A DNA stretch of 37,713 bases, taken from assembly GCA_004124475.1 (NCBI GenBank), contig SCKK01000035.1, positions 1 through 37,713 on the forward strand, in the 5' to 3' direction. Each line of letters begins with the position of its first letter. Position 1 is the stretch's first letter. Below the pieces are notes generated by a model that saw nothing but the letters and a program-made list of their open reading frames with translations, made no database searches and was not told where the DNA came from. This document shows, one piece after another, positions 6,316-33,143 of the stretch. Source of the DNA: Fidelibacterota bacterium (lineage in GTDB: Bacteria; Fidelibacterota; Marinisomatia; Marinisomatales; SCKK01). A program made the position numbers and the translations under genes.

Positions 6316-6548
6316 TGCGTATTCTTGTCTCCCTGTTGAATAATGGGAGATTCCACCCCGATACGTTCGTTCCTCACTACGGGGCAGGCCCCCGCATCCG
6401 CTATGCTACTGATGGGATTTCCCTGCCTGGTAGGCAGACAGGCGCTATGCTCAACAATGACATAATGACCCTAGTGAAATACCTCCTTCGTCGGATTTCA
6501 CAGGGCAAGCAGCGCAGCGAAGTTAATGACTATCAATAGTGCAATGAA
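6316..6548. repeat. GC-rich dispersed repeat, copy A (core 6356-6389)
   Basis: The gap after the HTH-Wzz gene holds a GC-rich repeat. Its core reads GATACGTTCGTTCCTCACTA and then CGGGGCAGGC. Near-identical cores occur at 7889-7933 and 8275-8317. The apparent 74-codon frame across it looks like repeat translated by chance, not a gene. Confidence 0.75.
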
Positions 6549-6926
6549 ATGAACAGGCAAGAAGAAATAATAGAAGAGATAGAGAAACAGTTATGTCGAG
6601 TACGACGCGAATTAAAAGGATATAAGGTTTTTCTTTTTGGTACACGTGCCGCCGGGGTTGCCCATAAACATTCCGACTTTGATATTGGTATTCTCGGTGA
6701 TCGTCCAATTCCTTTGAAAACGTTTTTTAAAATTGAGGATCTCTTCGATTCAATAGATACTTTGTACACTATAGATTGGGTGGATCTAAACCGTGCCAGT
6801 GCATCTTTTCGTGAGGAAGCTCTGAAAAATACGGGAAATATCATGAATAAACACCGAATACAGTATGATTCTCCATTGGATGCACTTATTGCACTGGTGA
6901 AACAACTCCATGTTTACGAAATGTAA
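6549..6926 (+). CDS. MNT-type nucleotidyltransferase, solitary
   Basis: A 125-aa minimal nucleotidyltransferase with FGTRAAGVAHKHSDFDIGIL. The usual G-S pair is G-T here, followed by the two-aspartate metal motif DFD at about residue 41. Such proteins are normally the antitoxin half of an MNT/HEPN pair, but no HEPN gene follows directly. An HI0074-like HEPN remnant lies about 1 kb downstream (7934-8227) and may be the lost partner or come from another pair. ATG 6549 was chosen; ATG 6544 is out of frame. Activity is not demonstrable from sequence. Confidence 0.75.
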   Translation: MNRQEEIIEEIEKQLCRVRRELKGYKVFLFGTRAAGVAHKHSDFDIGILGDRPIPLKTFFKIEDLFDSIDTLYTIDWVDLNRASASFREEALKNTGNIMNKHRIQYDSPLDALIALVKQLHVYEM

Positions 6927-6932
6927 TATCAC

Positions 6933-7073
6933 ATGGACTCTGAAGATTTTAGTGACAAATTTCAGAAAGGACAACTGGGGGATTCCATTGACTTTATCGA
7001 ATGGGCAAACACATACCAGCATCACATAGCTTTGCGAGCCGAAGTCCAAAAGCTTCTCGTCTATGTTGCATGA
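6933..7073 (+). CDS. Small ORF of 46 aa (conserved-looking hypothetical)
   Basis: The frame starts six bases after the MNT gene stop. It reads MDSEDFSDKFQKGQLGDSID, then FIEWANTYQHHIALRAEVQKLL. The composition and the GDSIDFIEWA core look like a family of small acidic proteins found beside nucleotidyltransferase or toxin genes. I recall that pattern only loosely and cannot name it. Tight spacing suggests co-translation with 6549-6926. Confidence 0.5.
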   Translation: MDSEDFSDKFQKGQLGDSIDFIEWANTYQHHIALRAEVQKLLVYVA

Positions 7074-7136
7074 GATAAGTGTATTGAATCCTATGGTTGA
7101 TCGTTTGCCACTGTGTCGCTGTTCAAAGAGGAACTA

Positions 7137-7400
7137 ATGGAGAAAAGGTACATAACAAAGGAACATAATCCTATCATGGAAACAATAATTACGATACATA
7201 TAGAAAGACTACCAGAGGGGATTTACCTTGCTACCTCTGACGATGTGCAAGGTCTTGTCGCTCAGGGACGCACGGTAAGTGAGACTCTGGAGATTGCGAG
7301 GGACGTGGTTAAGAAATTGATAGAGGCTCAGGGTAAACCGCTGGCACGGATAAAACGAGTGAAGAAATCTTTTGATTATCCGCTGGTGGTGGGGGTATAG
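7137..7400 (+). CDS. hicB: HicB-like antitoxin
   Basis: A HicB-fold antitoxin of 87 aa. After a short N-terminus it has the typical ITIHIERLPEGIYLATSDDV, GLVAQGRTVSETLEIARDVV and a C-terminal basic stretch. The start at 7137 was chosen because an AAAGAGG ribosome site ends six bases before it; ATG 7176 is the other option. It directly precedes a HicA gene without a gap, in the order hicB-hicA. The antitoxin would bind HicA and probably repress this operon. Confidence 0.78.
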   Translation: MEKRYITKEHNPIMETIITIHIERLPEGIYLATSDDVQGLVAQGRTVSETLEIARDVVKKLIEAQGKPLARIKRVKKSFDYPLVVGV

Positions 7401-7625
7401 TTGGGGCGTCTAGCTGGTTTTAGTTACCGCAAAGTAGGGAAGAAATTGAAGAGGTTAGGATTTGAGTTTCATCGACAAGCTGCTGGAAGTCACGAAATTT
7501 GGCATAATCCTGAAACGCACTTGTATACAACCATTCCTAATCACCCAGGTGATATTCCTGAGGGAACTCTTCGTGCGATACTGAAGCAGGCGGGAATCAA
7601 CCCAGAACAATTTCTTTCACCTTAG
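7401..7625 (+). CDS. hicA: HicA-like mRNA interferase toxin
   Basis: A 74-aa YcfA/HicA protein with a dsRBD-like fold signature: YRKVGKKLKRLGFEFHRQ, then GSHEIWHNPE with the catalytic histidine in the G-S-H motif, then TIPNHPGDIPEGTLRAILKQ. The length is normal for the family, and the gene appears intact. TTG at 7401 follows the hicB stop codon immediately, so translation is probably coupled. HicA cleaves mRNA when its antitoxin is lost. Confidence 0.85.
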   Translation: MGRLAGFSYRKVGKKLKRLGFEFHRQAAGSHEIWHNPETHLYTTIPNHPGDIPEGTLRAILKQAGINPEQFLSP

Positions 7626-7700
7626 GTGATGGAACAAAAGTCAGGAAGCAGTGGGCGGGTGTCACTGATCAGGGTTAGTTTGGAAGGAAAGGAGGCAAAC

Positions 7701-7829
7701 TTGACATATGTAGAGAAATGCACTCGATGCAGTGGAGAAGTAGTTGAAAAGAATGTTAAAGAGATTCTTTCCGCTACAGTTCCCGATGTTTCGGGACGGA
7801 CGGGAAAGGCCCCGAACAGTCGTTTCTAA
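7701..7829 (+). pseudogene. Truncated YgiT-type zinc-ribbon antitoxin fragment
   Basis: A good ribosome site (AAAGGAGG, 7688-7694 region) precedes TTG 7701. The product starts MTYVEKCTRCSGEVVEKNVK, the N-terminal half of a YgiT/MqsA-like zinc ribbon (first C-x2-C pair). The second Cys pair is missing, because the reading frame runs into a GC-rich repeat at about 7775. The remaining residues are repeat-encoded. An alternative longer frame from GTG 7626 exists. I treat it as a remnant broken by the repeat. Confidence 0.55.
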
Positions 7830-7933
7830 TAAAGCTTCGCAACCTGCCCGACTGCGTCATTCAGGCGGGCGGGACAGGTCGTTCCCTACCCCAGTACGCT
7901 CGTTCCTCGCTACGGGGTTGGCGGGACAGGCAG
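7780..7933. repeat. GC-rich dispersed repeat, copy B (core 7889-7933)
   Basis: The core reads CCAGTACGCTCGTTCCTCGC, then TACGGGG, matching copies A and C. It is surrounded by CCTGCCC/GGGCGGG inverted stretches. The repeat sits exactly between a 3'-truncated YgiT fragment and a 5'-truncated HEPN fragment, so it marks a deletion or insertion junction. Confidence 0.75.
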
Positions 7934-8227
7934 TATTTTGAGTTCTGTTTTGAATTAGCCTGGAAAAGCATTAAAATTTTTTGTGAAGAACAGGGGCTCA
8001 GCGATTGTAATTCACCAAAGAAAGCACTCAAACAAGCTTTTGCTTTAAAATGGATTGGAAAAGAAGAAATTTGGCTTGAAATGCTTTCGGCAAGAAATCA
8101 AATGGCACATACTTATGATTCCAAAGATGCTTTACAAATCTATTATCGTTTGTCCTTTTTTGTCCCGGAGCTATCAAATCTAGCAAAAAAATTGCAACAG
8201 GAATTGACAGATGGTAATAATCCCTGA
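7934..8227 (+). pseudogene. HI0074-like HEPN (nucleotidyltransferase substrate-binding) protein, 5'-truncated
   Basis: In frame 2 this region reads FEFCFELAWKSIKIFCEEQG, then WLEMLSARNQMAHTYDSKDA and ends at a TGA at 8225-8227. This matches the HI0074/TIGR01987 family, whose conserved FEFTFELAWK and RN-x3-HTY motifs I recognise. The first 35 or so residues and the start codon are missing; the sequence emerges from the repeat. The partner nucleotidyltransferase is absent next to it. It is a broken toxin-antitoxin remnant. Confidence 0.8.
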
Positions 8228-8274
8228 GTTGTGCTTTCAACTTGAATGTACCTGCCCGCCCTTATTTTTCGCTA

Positions 8275-8317
8275 ACCCAGTATGGTCGTCCCTCCCTACG
8301 GGGCAAGCGGGGCAGGC
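8275..8317. repeat. GC-rich dispersed repeat, copy C
   Basis: The core reads CCCAGTATGGTCGTCCCTCC, then CTACGGGGC. It is the third member of the family with copies A and B, and is followed by further GGGCAGGC strings to about 8340. It lies just after the HEPN remnant and before the antitoxin gene at 8398. Confidence 0.75.
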
Positions 8318-8397
8318 ATTCTTCCCTATAGGGCAGGCGATAGATAAACTTATAAGGTGAATAATTAAAGTTAGGTAAGTGAGGAGGTAATAATCAC

Positions 8398-8622
8398 ATG
8401 AATGAAAAAATATCTTCTTCGAGATTTCAGGAAGCAATAGAAACAGTTGAGGCGTTACCAAAAGATGATCAGGCGCTATTGATTGAGATACTTAAACAAC
8501 GTTTTATTGCGCATAGGCGTAAAGTAATAGCAAACGATATTTCAGAAGCACGCGAAGCCTATGAGCAGGGTAATGTTCATCGTGGGACTGTTGAGGATTT
8601 GATGCGGGATATGGAGGAGTGA
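8398..8622 (+). CDS. Putative antitoxin of a RelE/YafQ-type module
   Basis: A 74-aa, mainly helical protein with EAIETVEALPKDDQALLIEI, AHRRKVIANDISEAREAYEQ and GTVEDLMRDMEE. This pattern is familiar from small antitoxins that precede RelE-superfamily toxins. A strong ribosome site (GAGGAGG, about 8381-8387) precedes the ATG. The stop overlaps the toxin's GTG start by 4 nt. The function is assigned by family look and neighbour. Confidence 0.75.
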   Translation: MNEKISSSRFQEAIETVEALPKDDQALLIEILKQRFIAHRRKVIANDISEAREAYEQGNVHRGTVEDLMRDMEE

Positions 8623-8903
8623 AAACTCTGGTATGGAGTAAAACGTTCCTGCGAGCATTTAAACAAGCCATTCGAAGACAGCCTGAATTGGAAGTAAGAG
8701 TAAAACATTCACTACAACAATTAGCGGAAGATCCCTTTCACCCATCGCTACACAGTCATAAGTTGAAAGGATCGTTAAAAGGATCTTGGGCCTGCACAGT
8801 TGATTATGATAATCGAATTTTATTCGAATTAGTAAAGAATCCGGAATCAGGTGAAGATGACATTTTATTATTGACAATGGGAACTCATGATGAAGTTTAT
8901 TAA
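8619..8903 (+). CDS. RelE/YafQ-superfamily mRNA interferase toxin
   Basis: A 94-aa toxin fold protein. The N-terminus VWSKTFLRAFKQAIRRQPEL, a middle part with LAEDPFHPSLHSHKLKGSLK, and a C-terminal VDYDNRILFELV region match the RelE/ParE-type arrangement (HKLKG...YRILF). The length is normal and the frame intact. GTG start (GTGA overlap with the antitoxin). RelE toxins cleave mRNA at the ribosome; ParE-like action on gyrase cannot be excluded from sequence. Confidence 0.78.
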   Translation: MKTLVWSKTFLRAFKQAIRRQPELEVRVKHSLQQLAEDPFHPSLHSHKLKGSLKGSWACTVDYDNRILFELVKNPESGEDDILLLTMGTHDEVY

Positions 8904-9214
8904 GTACTTAGTGTATTGTAAGCCTGTAAAGTTCATTAAGTCTAACAAAGCCAATAAACTTTGAATAGCCCTAATAACAAAAAATCCTTAAATTTATTCT
9001 TATCCACAAATGGCCCGTCTACACTGCACTACCCATCTTCACTTCCATCATAATTTCATTACGATGGATAAACCGTTACGATGGACAGGCGACGGGCAGG
9101 CCCGCCAAAAAAACCGGTGGGTCAGGCAATGACCACTAAAAACCTTATATTTCTATTCGCCTGTCCTGTGAAATACGAAGGATGAGCAAATTTCTACAGG
9201 ATGGACAGTGATTA
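8904..9214. repeat. Palindrome-rich intergenic gap
   Basis: This 311-base gap shows no gene. CCCGTCTACAC at about 9004 repeats a string from the 3701-4121 gap. TCCATCATAAT and TTACGATGGA form an imperfect palindrome around 9050-9070. A further hairpin at 9165-9200 has CCTGTGAAAT and ATTTCTACAGG arms. Its arm matches the terminal repeat of the GIY-YIG element 50 bases downstream. Confidence 0.65.
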
Positions 9215-9250
9215 GTGGATAAAATACTTGTTACTGGTTCTGCCGGCTTT

Positions 9251-9544
9251 ACCCTGTGAAATAATTTCATATTTCTAATAGAGATGAAAATGTATTACAC
9301 ATATGTTTTGCTGAGCGAAAGGGATGGAAATATGTATTCTTGATTTACTGAGAATATGAAATTAAGATTTGAGCAGCATCAAAAGGGATTTGTTGATTCA
9401 ACAAGAAATAGGCGACCATTAGCGTTAATTTACTATGAAGCATGCAAGAGTAAAGATGATGCGATCAGACGAGAAAAGTATTTTAAAACCCACTATGGTA
9501 GGATGTTTATCAAGAAACGGCTCAAATCTTATTTCACGGGGTGA
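9251..9544 (+). mobile_element. 294-bp GIY-YIG element with terminal inverted repeats
   Basis: The left end reads ACCCTGTGAAATAA. The right end region reads TTATTTCACGGGGT, its reverse complement with one mismatch. The element splits the epimerase gene between codons TTT and ATC, and removing it restores GSAGFIGFHL exactly. It holds one gene, a GIY-YIG nuclease, whose last codons (SYFTG and stop) lie within the right repeat. Its length is a multiple of three. No target duplication can be shown. I consider it a small mobile unit. Confidence 0.78.
9284..9544 (+). pseudogene. GIY-YIG endonuclease with in-frame stop
   Basis: The frame reads MKMYYTYVLLSERDGNMYS, then a TGA stop at 9341-9343, then FTENMKLRFEQHQKG, LIYYEACKSKDDAIRREKYF and ends RLKSYFTG. 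In intact members the position of S-stop is the I-G of the YIG motif (MYIGFT). The two-part GIY-YIG signature is therefore lost, while the Arg and Glu regions (LRFEQH, AIRREKYF) remain. The downstream 62-codon part could start at ATG 9356 but would lack the GIY motif. The gene is probably inactive. Confidence 0.85.
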
Positions 9545-9941
9545 ATCGGCTTTCATCTCTCAAAGTCACTCCTTGATGATGGCTACCAGGTGCTGGGGAT
9601 TGATAATATCAACGATTACTACGACCCCAAACTCCCTCTTGAAAAGGTAGATATTGCAGATAGAGAAGCTCTCACCCAATCATTTCAATCATTCAATCCT
9701 GACAAAGTTGTCAACATAGCCATGCAAGCTGGAGTACACTACAGCATTGAGAATCCTTATGCATACATGGATTCCAACTTGGTCGGCTTTTTAAATATCC
9801 TAGAATTATGCCGGCACAATAAGGTGGAAGGATTTGTTTATGTGTCTAGTTCTTTGGCTCATGGATGTAACACCAAAAATACATTTAGTGAGGACGGGGT
9901 TAATAATCCAATTTCATTGTATCTAGAATATATTAGTTCAC

Positions 9942-10418
9942 ATGGGTAATCATAATATTAAACTTCTTGTTTATGACTTCGATGGTGTTATGACTGATAA
10001 CAAAGTCTATGTTGACCAAAAGGGAAATGAAATGGTTCAAGTAAACCGGGCGGATGGGTTGGGTGTTAGTGAAATAAAAAAACTTGGTATTGAGCAAATC
10101 ATTATTTCAACAGAAAAAAATACTGTGGTAACATTTAGAGCCGCTAAACTTGGTATTCCCTGTTTGCAGGGGGTTGATAATAAGAAAGCAGCTTTAATGG
10201 ATTATTGTAAAAAAAACGATATTGATATTCAGAAAGCAGCTTATGTGGGTAACGATATAAATGATAAGGACGCCATGGAGATTGTAGGCTTTACATACAG
10301 TCCTGCAGATGCCCATGAAAGTATTAAAGCAATTTCAGATCAGGTATTGAGAACAAAGGGTGGCCATGGCGTCATCAGAGAATTATTGGATTTCATCATA
10401 GAAAAAAAAGGAGTATAA
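9942..10418 (+). CDS. KdsC-type HAD phosphatase
   Basis: A 158-aa HAD-superfamily phosphatase of the KDO-8-phosphate phosphatase type, without a cap domain. Motif I is VYDFDGVMTDN (nucleophile and acid aspartates), the threonine/serine motif is IISTEK, and the acidic motif is YVGNDINDKDAM. Next to NeuB and NeuA genes, the likely substrate is the 9-phosphate of a nonulosonic acid (Neu5Ac-9-P or KDN-9-P), not KDO-8-P. That is context inference. The start overlaps the epimerase remnant by 8 bases. The length is normal. Confidence 0.85.
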   Translation: MGNHNIKLLVYDFDGVMTDNKVYVDQKGNEMVQVNRADGLGVSEIKKLGIEQIIISTEKNTVVTFRAAKLGIPCLQGVDNKKAALMDYCKKNDIDIQKAAYVGNDINDKDAMEIVGFTYSPADAHESIKAISDQVLRTKGGHGVIRELLDFIIEKKGV

Positions 10419-15678: not shown

Positions 15679-16830
15679 ATGCAAGTAGGTAAACACCTAA
15701 ATATACAAGTATGTTTTCATGCCCCTCGTCAAAGTAATATCGTTTTGTTTTATGAAAATAATATAGACTTAATAAAAAGATATATATTGACTGACATTCC
15801 ATTTTTTACCTATAGTACTAAACCCGAAAAGTTTTATTTTTGTCTTGGTGTGATTTCTTATTTTATGAGATCACTGAAAAATTTCGATTGGAAGGAATTT
15901 ATTATCAAAAAAAAATTAAAGAGATTGTTAGGCATATTATTGAACCACTATAGACTAGCAACCTTGGAATATATAAATCCCAAAGTTGTAATTACTTATA
16001 TCGATAATTCCGAATTGTTTCATTGGCTAAGCAGAAACTGTAATGGTAGTGAATTTTTTGCAATTCAAAATGGTAATCGGACGAACTGGGAACTTGAACG
16101 TGTTTCTAAAAATGATTATTACCTAAAACATTTTTTTTGTTTCGGTAATTATGATGTAGACCGTTTTAAGGCATTTAATCTAAAAATAGATGACTTTTAT
16201 CCCATTGGTTCATTGAAAGGTGGAATTATTTTATCTGAGGCAGCGAAGCATATCAACAACAATAAATATGATATCTGCTTTATATCATCTGGAACTTTGG
16301 AAACGAAATCGAAAGAATTTAACAGGGATTACTACTTATCTTATGAGTTATTAATTACATATCTTGCAAAATTTATTGAAGAATTTGATTTAAGTATTTC
16401 AGTAGCATTGAGATTTGATAAAAAATATTTCCCTGGGTTAAGTAAACTTGAGAAAGAGCACTTCGATTGCAAATTTTCAAAGAAAGCTGATCTAATAGAA
16501 ATGAATAGATTGAGCACCTATTTTAATGCGCTAGATTCTAGTGTTTTGATTGGTTCTGGTACATCAGTTTTGGCTGAATGTTTTGGGTTCGGCAAGAAGA
16601 TCCTATACTGTGATTTTAGTGAGAGGAAAATATATAATAATCATGATTCAATGGTATTATTTACAGAACCTAATTATGATTCTTTTAAAAATCGATTAAA
16701 TGAATTAATAAACGAACCTTATGATAAATATTGTGAACGGACAAGAGATTATAGATCTTACGTGATGAACTATAACATGGATTGTCTTCCACATGTCTTT
16801 ATCAGAAAAAAAATAAAAGAATATCTGTAA
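15679..16830 (+). CDS. Probable surface-carbohydrate glycosyltransferase, GT-B-like (unclear)
   Basis: A 383-aa soluble protein that I do not recognise by name. The N-terminal half has VVITYIDNSELFHWLSR and EFFAIQNG. The C-terminal half has SSVLIGSGTSVLAECFGFGK, a serine-rich donor-binding-like loop typical of GT-B glycosyltransferases and of capsule-type surface-carbohydrate proteins. It sits in a polysaccharide cluster. I infer a glycosyltransferase or related transferase for the nonulosonic acid chain, with low certainty about donor. ATG start; no clear ribosome site. Confidence 0.55.
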   Translation: MQVGKHLNIQVCFHAPRQSNIVLFYENNIDLIKRYILTDIPFFTYSTKPEKFYFCLGVISYFMRSLKNFDWKEFIIKKKLKRLLGILLNHYRLATLEYINPKVVITYIDNSELFHWLSRNCNGSEFFAIQNGNRTNWELERVSKNDYYLKHFFCFGNYDVDRFKAFNLKIDDFYPIGSLKGGIILSEAAKHINNNKYDICFISSGTLETKSKEFNRDYYLSYELLITYLAKFIEEFDLSISVALRFDKKYFPGLSKLEKEHFDCKFSKKADLIEMNRLSTYFNALDSSVLIGSGTSVLAECFGFGKKILYCDFSERKIYNNHDSMVLFTEPNYDSFKNRLNELINEPYDKYCERTRDYRSYVMNYNMDCLPHVFIRKKIKEYL

Positions 16831-17031
16831 TTATTGAACGACTATTCGTTTCACCCATTAAAAATCATTTATATATTCGAAATGATAATAGTACTGTTTT
16901 GTCTAAAACAAGAATTCTTCAACAGGGATAAATCTTGTTCTTTTCTTTATCAAAAAACTCTTATGTACAATTTTACTGCGTCTTTCATCTAATTGATAAA
17001 ACATTATTTCTATTTAAAAATTATTCAAAAC

Positions 17032-24564: not shown

Positions 24565-25500
24565 ATGAACAATAAAGTTTTAGTCACAGGTGGCGCTGGA
24601 TATATTGGTTCCGTGTTCGTACCGCAACTTCTTGCAACTGGTTATAAAGTAACGGTTCTCGACAATTTTATGTATAAACAGGATAGTTTACTGGATGTTT
24701 GCTACCATCCTAATCTTGAAATAATTCCCGGTGATGTCCGGGATACAGATTTACTCAAAAAAGAAATTGAAAAGCATGATATTATTATACCACTGGCAGC
24801 GATAGTGGGCGCTAGGGCCTGTGACAGGGATAAATCACTAGCCAAAGAAATAAACCAAACACAGGTAGAAAATATTGCCGGTTGGGTTGTCGATGAGCAG
24901 ATGGTTTTATTTCCGGTTACTAATAGCGGCTACGGAATTGGTCAGAAAGGAAAATATTGTGATGAAACTACCCCGCTAAATCCTATTTCCCATTATGGCC
25001 GGAAGAAGGTAAACGCTGAGAAAGCACTTTTGGATATGGGGAATGCTGTTACTTTTAGATTGGCTACAGTTTTTGGAACAGCGCCAAGAATGCGGATGGA
25101 TCTTCTGGTGAATGATTTTGTCTACCGCGCCTACAAAGATCGGTTCATAGTTCTTTTTGAATCGCACTTTAAACGTAATTATATACATATAAGGGATATT
25201 GCATCTGTGTTTTTACATGCCGTTGACAACTATGCCGCAATGAAAGGCAAAGCATATAATGTGGGCTTGAGCGATGCTAATTTTTCTAAGCGTGAATTGT
25301 GTGATAAGATTAGAGAGCACATACCAGACTTTCACATTTTTGAATCTGAGATTGGAAAAGATCCTGATAAAAGAAATTATATGGTCAGTAATAAAAAAAT
25401 TGAGGACACTGGTTGGGTGCCAAAATATAATATCGATGATGGAATACGAGAATTGATTAAGATGTACCAATACCTAAAGGTATCAAATTATCAAAACTAG
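24565..25500 (+). CDS. NAD-dependent epimerase/dehydratase (extended SDR)
   Basis: A 311-aa extended SDR. The glycine motif is VLVTGGAGYIGSVFVPQLL, with DNFMY, GDVRDTDLL, TNSGYGIG (catalytic Ser region) and Y-G-R-K-K. The family includes GDP/UDP-sugar 4-epimerases, dehydratases and reductases. It lies just after the kinase and HddC-like genes, so GDP-sugar conversion is plausible but unproven. The frame is intact and length normal. Confidence 0.83.
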   Translation: MNNKVLVTGGAGYIGSVFVPQLLATGYKVTVLDNFMYKQDSLLDVCYHPNLEIIPGDVRDTDLLKKEIEKHDIIIPLAAIVGARACDRDKSLAKEINQTQVENIAGWVVDEQMVLFPVTNSGYGIGQKGKYCDETTPLNPISHYGRKKVNAEKALLDMGNAVTFRLATVFGTAPRMRMDLLVNDFVYRAYKDRFIVLFESHFKRNYIHIRDIASVFLHAVDNYAAMKGKAYNVGLSDANFSKRELCDKIREHIPDFHIFESEIGKDPDKRNYMVSNKKIEDTGWVPKYNIDDGIRELIKMYQYLKVSNYQN

Positions 25501-32360: not shown

Positions 32361-33143
32361 ATGGATGTAATCATTTTATGTGGCGGTAAAGGGACCCGCT
32401 TAAGTGAGGAAACCACAAAGAAACCCAAACCCATTGTTGAAATTGGCGGGAAACCGATCTTATGGCATATTATGAAGATATACAGTCATTATGGTGTAAA
32501 TAGGTTCATACTCGCTCTCGGTTATAAAGGTGAGCAGATAAAGCAATATTTTTATAACTACAGAATAATGGGATCTAATTTTACGCTAAGATTAGATCCT
32601 AGACATGATATTGAGTTTTTAAATCATACAGATGAAAAAGATTGGGAAATTATCTTTGTTGATACAGGTGAAGAAACATTGAAAGGTGGACGGATAAAGA
32701 GAGTAGAGAAATATATAAAGAATAACTTATTTCATTTAACCTATGGGGATGGCGTTAGTGACGTTAATCTAAACAAATTGGTTGAGTTTCATAAGTCTCA
32801 TGGTTGTATAGGAACAGTTACGGCTGTAAGGCCTCCTTCGAGATTTGGAGAATTGAATATAGATGAAGATGATACCGTATTGGGTTTAGAAGAAAAACCG
32901 CAAATGGGACAAGGTTTGATTAATGGCGGTTTTTTTGTTTTCGATAAAAAAATGCTTTCATATTTAACAGAAGATGAAGATTGTGATTTCGAGTTTGGCC
33001 CTCTTCAGAAAATTGCAAAAGATGGTCAACTAAAAGCATTTGTACATGATGGTTTTTGGCAATGCATGGATAACGTGAGAGAACGTGATTATCTTGACAA
33101 ACAATTTAGAACTAATAACGCACCCTGGAAGATGTGGAAATAA
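32361..33143 (+). CDS. rfbF: Glucose-1-phosphate cytidylyltransferase
   Basis: Makes CDP-glucose from CTP and glucose-1-phosphate, the first step of CDP-deoxyhexose synthesis. The 260-aa length is typical. Motifs are CGGKGTRLSEETTKKPKPIV, GGKPILWHIMKIYSHYGV, YKGEQIKQYF, YGDGVSDV and GFWQCMDNVRERDYLD. A ribosome site AAAGGA precedes ATG. It overlaps or nearly abuts the next gene. Confidence 0.93.
   Translation: MDVIILCGGKGTRLSEETTKKPKPIVEIGGKPILWHIMKIYSHYGVNRFILALGYKGEQIKQYFYNYRIMGSNFTLRLDPRHDIEFLNHTDEKDWEIIFVDTGEETLKGGRIKRVEKYIKNNLFHLTYGDGVSDVNLNKLVEFHKSHGCIGTVTAVRPPSRFGELNIDEDDTVLGLEEKPQMGQGLINGGFFVFDKKMLSYLTEDEDCDFEFGPLQKIAKDGQLKAFVHDGFWQCMDNVRERDYLDKQFRTNNAPWKMWK

Follow-up and report, generated by a model that had tools for sequence, protein, structure and literature searches.

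A 294-bp inverted-repeat element with a GIY-YIG nuclease gene interrupts an epimerase gene and represents a widespread, possibly mobile, family

Results

Throughout, the window denotes the whole 37,713-nucleotide stretch of DNA that we analyzed. On its plus strand, an NAD-dependent epimerase gene is interrupted by a 294-bp GIY-YIG inverted-repeat element at positions 9251 to 9544, whose placement rests on its ends, the reading frame, and the empty-site sequence of G001, a genome of the same genus; the border can be shifted by 1 nt, as positions 9252 to 9545 fit equally well. The 5' part of the epimerase gene (VDKILVTGSAGF, 9215 to 9250, plus strand) begins at a GTG codon at 9215 and reads DKILVTGSAGF up to the insert, and the 3' part (9545 to 9949, plus strand) resumes with IGFHLSKSLLDDGYQV (IGFHLSKSL...). 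An earlier note on this DNA had proposed that removal of the segment restores the GSAGF^IGF turn in frame (the caret marks the insertion point) and that nuclease and epimerase share one frame, and both proposals held: the host frame is the same on the two flanks of the insert and in the nuclease, and the host without the insert matches the Epimerase profile PF01370 from profile position 1 (E = 2.6e-28, versus 2.9e-17 for the downstream part alone). G001 has the uninterrupted sequence ...GTTACTGGTTCAGCGGGGTTCATCGGTTTCCACCTC..., an empty site at the level of DNA. Compared with the full G001 gene, the 3' part in the window is decayed, having lost an internal piece and ending early, at 9949.

The left terminal arm of the element (TTTACCCTGTGAAATAA, 9248 to 9264, plus strand), placed by an inverted-repeat search and the family consensus, has an outer TTT(A) that doubles as host-gene sequence, and the right arm (TTATTTCACGGGGTGAA, 9529 to 9545, plus strand) carries the last nuclease codons and their stop. 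These arms match over 17 nt in inverted orientation at 88%, and their inner 14 bp pair at 13 of 14 positions, the single mismatch having been described before. The tetranucleotides flanking the insertion, TTTA and TGAA, follow the geometry of the clean copies described below but form no exact 4-bp repeat, and a right subterminal motif that is kept as DNA across the family (CTCAAATCTTATT) lies at 9521 to 9533 on the plus strand.

The nuclease gene itself is a pseudogene (9284 to 9544, plus strand), translated from 9284 as MKMYYTYVLLSERDGNMYS, a stop, and then FTEN...LKSYFTG with a terminal stop. It matches PF01541 (GIY-YIG) at E = 4.5e-12 and its relatives keep the catalytic Y, R, and E, but a TGA at 9341 to 9343 replaces the I-G of its YIG motif, the interruption that the earlier note had read there. 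Also as that note had it, SYFTG and the stop sit in the right arm at the element edge. The window copy has the appearance of a fossil, its nuclease gene and the host gene both being broken. That it might be served by a helper copy elsewhere found no support, as DNA and protein searches of its own genome revealed no second copy with the window's ends; the only other close nuclease there (51% identical, contig C65, about 32700 to 33050, catalogued as L003 and L104) has different arms, and the window copy is therefore probably dead.

Two solitary palindromes, neither assigned to a strand, lie nearby, and their link to the element is inferred. One, CCCTAGTGAAAT(acctccttcgtcgg)ATTTCACAGGG at 6469 to 6505, has the element's arm sequence. 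The other, the imperfect CCTGTCCTGTGAAAT..AAATTTCTACAGGATGGACAG at 9160 to 9208, is just upstream of the epimerase start and absent from the list of the repeat tool; a similar palindrome lies upstream of the element in G001. Positions 6549 to 8903 contain a series of small toxin-antitoxin-like genes, flanked by a chain-length/Wzz-like gene on one side and the broken epimerase on the other; among them are a Polbeta/MNT-like nucleotidyltransferase (6549 to 6926), a HicB-like DUF1902 protein (7113 to 7400), and a YafQ-like toxin (8619 to 8903).

A scan of GTDB contigs yielded 449 relatives of the nuclease; we fetched the best 80 of these and added others from whole-genome searches. Among the 90 distinct copies compared, 81 had no internal stop, and nearly all of the 90 were enclosed by ends in the same way, so the end structure in the window is not due to chance. 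An element of this family measures about 290 to 330 bp and consists of two terminal inverted repeats and one stand-alone GIY-YIG gene of 80 to 110 aa. Further copies with the same ends, the check that had been suggested, thus occur in many phyla: the relatives fetched came from Bacteroidota, Balneolota, Neomarinimicrobiota, Nitrospinota, Elusimicrobiota, Cloacimonadota, Bacillota, Thermodesulfobacteriota, and several CPR groups. Many are metagenome bins, and single phylum assignments may be wrong. Close copies number 1 to 4 per genome, and the picture of dispersed repeats drawn in the earlier note has to give way to one of elements that are not abundant but low-copy, horizontally spread, and site-selective. 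Relatives were present on five viral contigs, and the plasmid and phage collections held no copies of the element.

Most of the nuclease pairs tested are under purifying selection, strong in several, with dN/dS of 0.02 to 0.16 in ten pairs and higher values, 0.37 and 0.46, in two pairs of very close sequences. In an alignment of 49 relatives, Y5, Y16-x-G18, R26, and E62 are invariant or nearly so. The structure model of the nuclease (mean pLDDT 95) is a bare GIY-YIG domain with a short helical tail, and its fold matches SLX1 (Z = 7.7), the I-TevI catalytic domain (6.4), and UPF0213 (6.0); by sequence, the closest solved relatives are of the UPF0213/YhbQ type (BH0048, 1zg2, E = 5e-9). The nuclease reached no NCBIfam cut-off and no PHROG or PADLOC (defence) model, and a search of the element for a second domain besides GIY-YIG found none, nor any DDE, HUH, serine, or tyrosine transposase.

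More distant GIY-YIG homologues stand directly beside tRNA genes, in the window's own genome at L004, L005, L006/L007, and L008, and likewise at L013, L015, and L103. The adjoining tRNAs are those for Ser, Glu, Gly, Val, and Asn, and L006/L007 is a 320-bp tandem duplication of nuclease and tRNA-like pieces. These homologues are possibly a tRNA-targeting cousin family.

We compared the ends of the elements after placing each arm independently by consensus, with permuted partners as the control. The family arm core is ACCCYGTGAAATAA, and several arm types exist (GTGAAAT, GTCAAAT, GTTAAAT, CATGAAAT, and GTTAGAGAT), with the two arms of one element nearly always of the same type. The proportion of positions at which left and right arms agree is 0.791, versus 0.689 +/- 0.008 with permuted partners (maximum 0.722 of 5000). 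At core position 10, for example, the left/right pairs are G/G in 56 elements, C/C in 15, and T/T in 13, with 6 mismatches. In tree-independent pairs, the two arms change together in 5/5 cases at each of two core positions; with only five such pairs, a single position does not reach formal significance. The outermost tetranucleotides (TTTA, TTCA, or CTTG) behave in the opposite way, being the same at both ends in only 3/43 elements versus 13.2 expected, a value never so low in 5000 permutations, and on the tree this avoidance holds in 4/4 independent pairs.

The right arm normally overlies the codons for SYF(T)G, which raises the possibility of a coding effect. Seven copies have a different C-terminus (LRNWNNENS followed by a stop, for example), and in these CTCAAATCTTATT is nevertheless kept at 12 to 13 of 13 positions, despite lying out of frame or beyond the stop; the background maximum was 10/13 in 957 draws. 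The right end is thus conserved as DNA independently of the reading frame, as a DNA signal and not as a coding effect. Together, the covariation of the ends and this independence of frame argue for recognition of the ends by the nuclease, an argument from sequence patterns for which we have no binding data.

The interrupted genes were judged by motif-level reading and by family scans of the insert-free sequence, as an automatic test for open frames across the junctions gave no excess, its borders being off by a few bases. In epimerases the insertion motif is the GGAGF^IG turn, and in genes for four-helix-bundle proteins of the 23S-IVP type it is the NI^AEG region (without the insert, one such target matches PF05635, 23S-rRNA intervening-sequence proteins, at 4e-37). 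RAYT transposase genes are split at WCL^MPNHFH and at NPV^HHG, and these targets match NF047646 at 6e-14 and 7e-14, under that model's cut-off. The other close copy in the window's own genome (L104) splits an integron integrase at TTMI^YTHV, directly before the catalytic tyrosine, and this integrase without the insert scores 385 bits against TIGR02249. The nuclease and the gene that it interrupts are read in the same direction in every case looked at. The class of target tracks the tree of the nucleases, which was built on 84 columns: epimerase targets (20 rows) require 4 changes versus 18 when shuffled, RAYT targets (5 rows) 1 versus 4.9, and four-helix-bundle targets (11 rows) 6 versus 10.5. 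In one four-helix-bundle gene (L105, genome G121, contig C118, about 16415 to 17013), two different nuclease elements occupy two sites.

Relatives carrying the target without the insert, the other check that had been suggested, were found for several of these genes. RAYT sites are empty in at least 14 genomes, with no gaps at the junction, the four-helix-bundle gene has an empty site in relatives, and the epimerase is empty in Mesonia relatives, with one further relative keeping only a scar of the right arm. These empty sites are 70 to 85% identical to occupied ones, and we found no full and empty alleles that were nearly identical to each other. The earlier note would have abandoned mobility had close relatives held the segment as a fixed part of the gene, or had no other copies existed, and neither proved to be the case.

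Exact 4-bp target duplications were seen in two copies. L104, with perfect 17-nt arms (TATACCCCGTTAGAATC), is flanked by TATA on both sides, and L138, which splits a RAYT gene of Sunxiuqinia dokdonensis (empty target motif CCTGTCCACCATGG), has TCCA on both sides; in both, the gene is restored exactly when CCC...GGG and four further bases, the repeat, are taken out. Many insertions, the window's included, are without exact 4-bp flank repeats, and no single duplication length resolves the four-helix-bundle sites and the other RAYT sites.

In about 19 copies, the 5' end of the interrupted gene is present twice, which leaves a complete gene downstream of the element; nearly all of these are in epimerases, and one is in an unrelated CPR gene (L052). 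The first repeat ends at the left arm and the second 71 to 81 nt past the right arm, a constant distance although the start codon lies 33 to 66 nt before the site. Within each of L127, L128, L130, and L140, the two 5'-end copies are closer to each other than to those of any other element. A simple long target duplication was rejected as the origin of the 71- to 81-nt repeat, since the repeat of L127 is 97% identical in its coding part but element-like ahead of the ATG; four-helix-bundle and RAYT copies without the repeat also disfavor it. Tandem remnants at L131 and L082 document repeated insertion at one site.

This arrangement bears on the claim that the element split the epimerase cleanly. 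The clean split is what the window contains, but it may not be how the element arrived: in G001 the repeated 5' end stops 78 to 80 nt past the right arm, ATCGG stands both after the right arm and after the repeat, and a 78-bp slippage deletion between two such ATCGG in a G001-like arrangement would produce that of the window. Judging from this comparison, the clean split is probably secondary; a direct clean insertion is not excluded. Independent insertion in the window and in G001, at which the tree hinted, was not supported by an AU test (p = 0.54).

Short palindromes without a nuclease also occur. In L127 and in L128 of Mesonia profundi they lie at the same epimerase GGGTTT^ site, upstream of the nuclease element, and measure 34 bp (ACCC(C/T)GTGTAATGGAGCTCAATTACA(C/T)(A/G)GGGTGA). 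Such same-arm palindromes could be nuclease-free derivatives of the element. The arm pattern matches 6 places in the window's own genome and no more than 19 in any of 33 genomes tested, counts that cover only GTGAAAT-type arms and that rule out high-copy REP-like repeats. The Tangfeifania genome, with 19 matches, contains an array in which 42-bp palindromes, nearly identical and with GTGAAAT arms, recur at a 54-bp spacing (G268, contig C71, about 24947 to 25258).

Discussion

We propose that this family is a minimal mobile element, IS-like and homing-like at once, which depends on its nuclease and recognizes its own ends. This is the best-supported reading, as the earlier note had suspected in calling it a minimal mobile unit with a GIY-YIG nuclease as its only gene, and we think it somewhat likelier to be right than wrong, with movement and enzyme chemistry inferred. 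For the fuller statement, a class of bacterial transposable elements in which a nuclease of about 84 residues, the sole enzyme, recognizes co-evolving ends, targets conserved gene motifs, makes 4-bp duplications, and, in epimerases, leaves an intact gene, we see the chances as evenly balanced.

Our observations extend to anatomy, family, selection, empty sites, and target preference; mobility by the nuclease and all of the enzymology are inferences from them. We infer recognition of the ends from the concerted arms and the frame-independent right end, recognition of the site, as in homing enzymes, from the conserved-motif targets and the clade-specific choice among them, and a staggered cut from the 4-bp repeats. 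The nuclease would thus bind the ends of its own element and a preferred target, and would cut the target with a 4-nt stagger; the element would be placed in the gap, which the host would then repair. It would in effect be a transposase with homing-like site choice, and strands might be joined by the nuclease itself or by host repair. To our knowledge, GIY-YIG enzymes are hydrolases, and we know of no strand transfer by one. Other points also count against a mobile element: no movement has been observed, full and empty alleles that nearly match are lacking, many insertions show no exact 4-bp repeat, and copy number is low, unlike that of most insertion sequences.

The most serious alternative is that the nuclease is a homing endonuclease gene, which cuts uninterrupted alleles and is copied in via flanking homology, with repeats that are incidental or serve transcription. 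Conserved motifs as targets (the Rossmann turn of the epimerase, the HUH motif of RAYT, the catalytic-tyrosine motif of IntI, and NIAEG in 23S-IVP) are what such a gene would choose, and its low copy number, its horizontal spread across phyla with each clade true to a target gene, and a fold near the I-TevI catalytic domain (Z = 6.4) would all fit. Homing, however, needs no element ends, and here the ends covary and the right one is kept as DNA out of frame; nor would homologous homing yield sites in unrelated genes or 4-bp duplications. We therefore regard it as unlikely, if still a real contender. If it were true, the family would be a variation on a known kind and no new category.

Less likely again is a non-autonomous element whose ends are moved in trans, by a RAYT/IS200-type Y1 or a host DDE transposase, with the nuclease as a passenger. 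That short palindromes with these arms exist without a nuclease is compatible with this, and the non-identical outer tetranucleotides (3/43 versus 13.2) loosely recall the REP head (PMC2817692). Against it stand the one type of ends that always encloses this nuclease subfamily across phyla, the purifying selection on the nuclease, and a nuclease gene that runs into the right arm. Moreover, IS200/IS605 elements are not known to leave a target duplication, whereas two copies here have clean 4-bp ones. Finally, a fixed gene or regulatory RNA hairpin between complementary sequences, as a single locus with often mismatched outer arms might suggest, is scarcely tenable given several interrupted gene families, the same ends in distant phyla, tandem re-insertions (L131 and L082), no Rfam match for positions 9000 to 9800 of the window at E up to 1, and the empty sites, which already contradict it.

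Returning to the reading as a nuclease-dependent mobile element, DNA movers are sorted by few chemistries (DDE, HUH, serine, tyrosine, and reverse transcription), and a GIY-YIG nuclease between co-evolving repeats would, if this is correct, add one. It would also link homing endonucleases with insertion sequences, perhaps as the smallest autonomous element, and would explain many small GIY-YIG genes of Bacteroidota and CPR now known only as "hypothetical nuclease." At about 84 aa, and with a confident structure model, these proteins make the question directly testable. The element kind is widespread and apparently undescribed: no description of such an element was found in the open-access papers covered or the family databases searched, and a 2006 survey of the GIY-YIG superfamily does not mention inverted repeats (PMC1564403). 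Whether it is a new category rests on mobility, and we lean modestly toward thinking that it is.

Among known systems, insertion sequences and MITEs are like it in having terminal inverted repeats that belong to the element, a single gene, interruption of genes, and short nuclease-free palindromes; two of its copies also have 4-bp direct repeats. It differs in its very short ends for its size, in having 1 to 4 close copies per genome, and in lacking a transposase of any known class (DDE, HUH, S, or Y), its sole gene being the GIY-YIG nuclease. Free-standing homing genes of the I-TevI type resemble it in fold, preference for conserved motifs, horizontal spread, and low copy number, and like them it has a nuclease in a conserved target with empty alleles. 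The element, with a nuclease of 84 aa, is without an intron, intein, NUMOD, or other extra DNA-binding domain, and has covarying terminal repeats and, in two copies, short target duplications. A homing endonuclease does not recognize its own mobile DNA but only the uninterrupted target (PMC1564403); for the element, covarying and frame-independent ends argue, from sequence alone, that its ends are recognized. A group I or II intron or an intein is not what we see, as there is no Rfam match in 9000 to 9800 at E up to 1 and host-frame stops lie inside the element.

UPF0213/YhbQ proteins (BH0048, 1zg2), the closest solved relatives, have the same fold, but the nucleases of the element subfamily end in a distinct C-terminal LKSYFTG tail, which is translated from within the right arm, and we know of no UPF0213 protein that lies between terminal repeats. 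Penelope-like elements also use a GIY-YIG endonuclease for integration and make short target duplications (PMC3846280), but they are eukaryotic retroelements with a reverse transcriptase, of which the element has none. The closest analogue in logic is the RAYT/REP unit, in which a nuclease gene is flanked by inverted palindromes that change with it (PMC2817692); more than 100 REPs per genome are typical. Both have a single small nuclease gene, palindromic arms that change with it, and short palindromes without the gene. RAYT, however, is an unrelated HUH/Y1 enzyme, so that neither the HUH Y1 gene nor the more than 100 REPs of such a unit is found here, where a GIY-YIG nuclease goes with few palindromes, and the GIY-YIG elements themselves interrupt RAYT genes.
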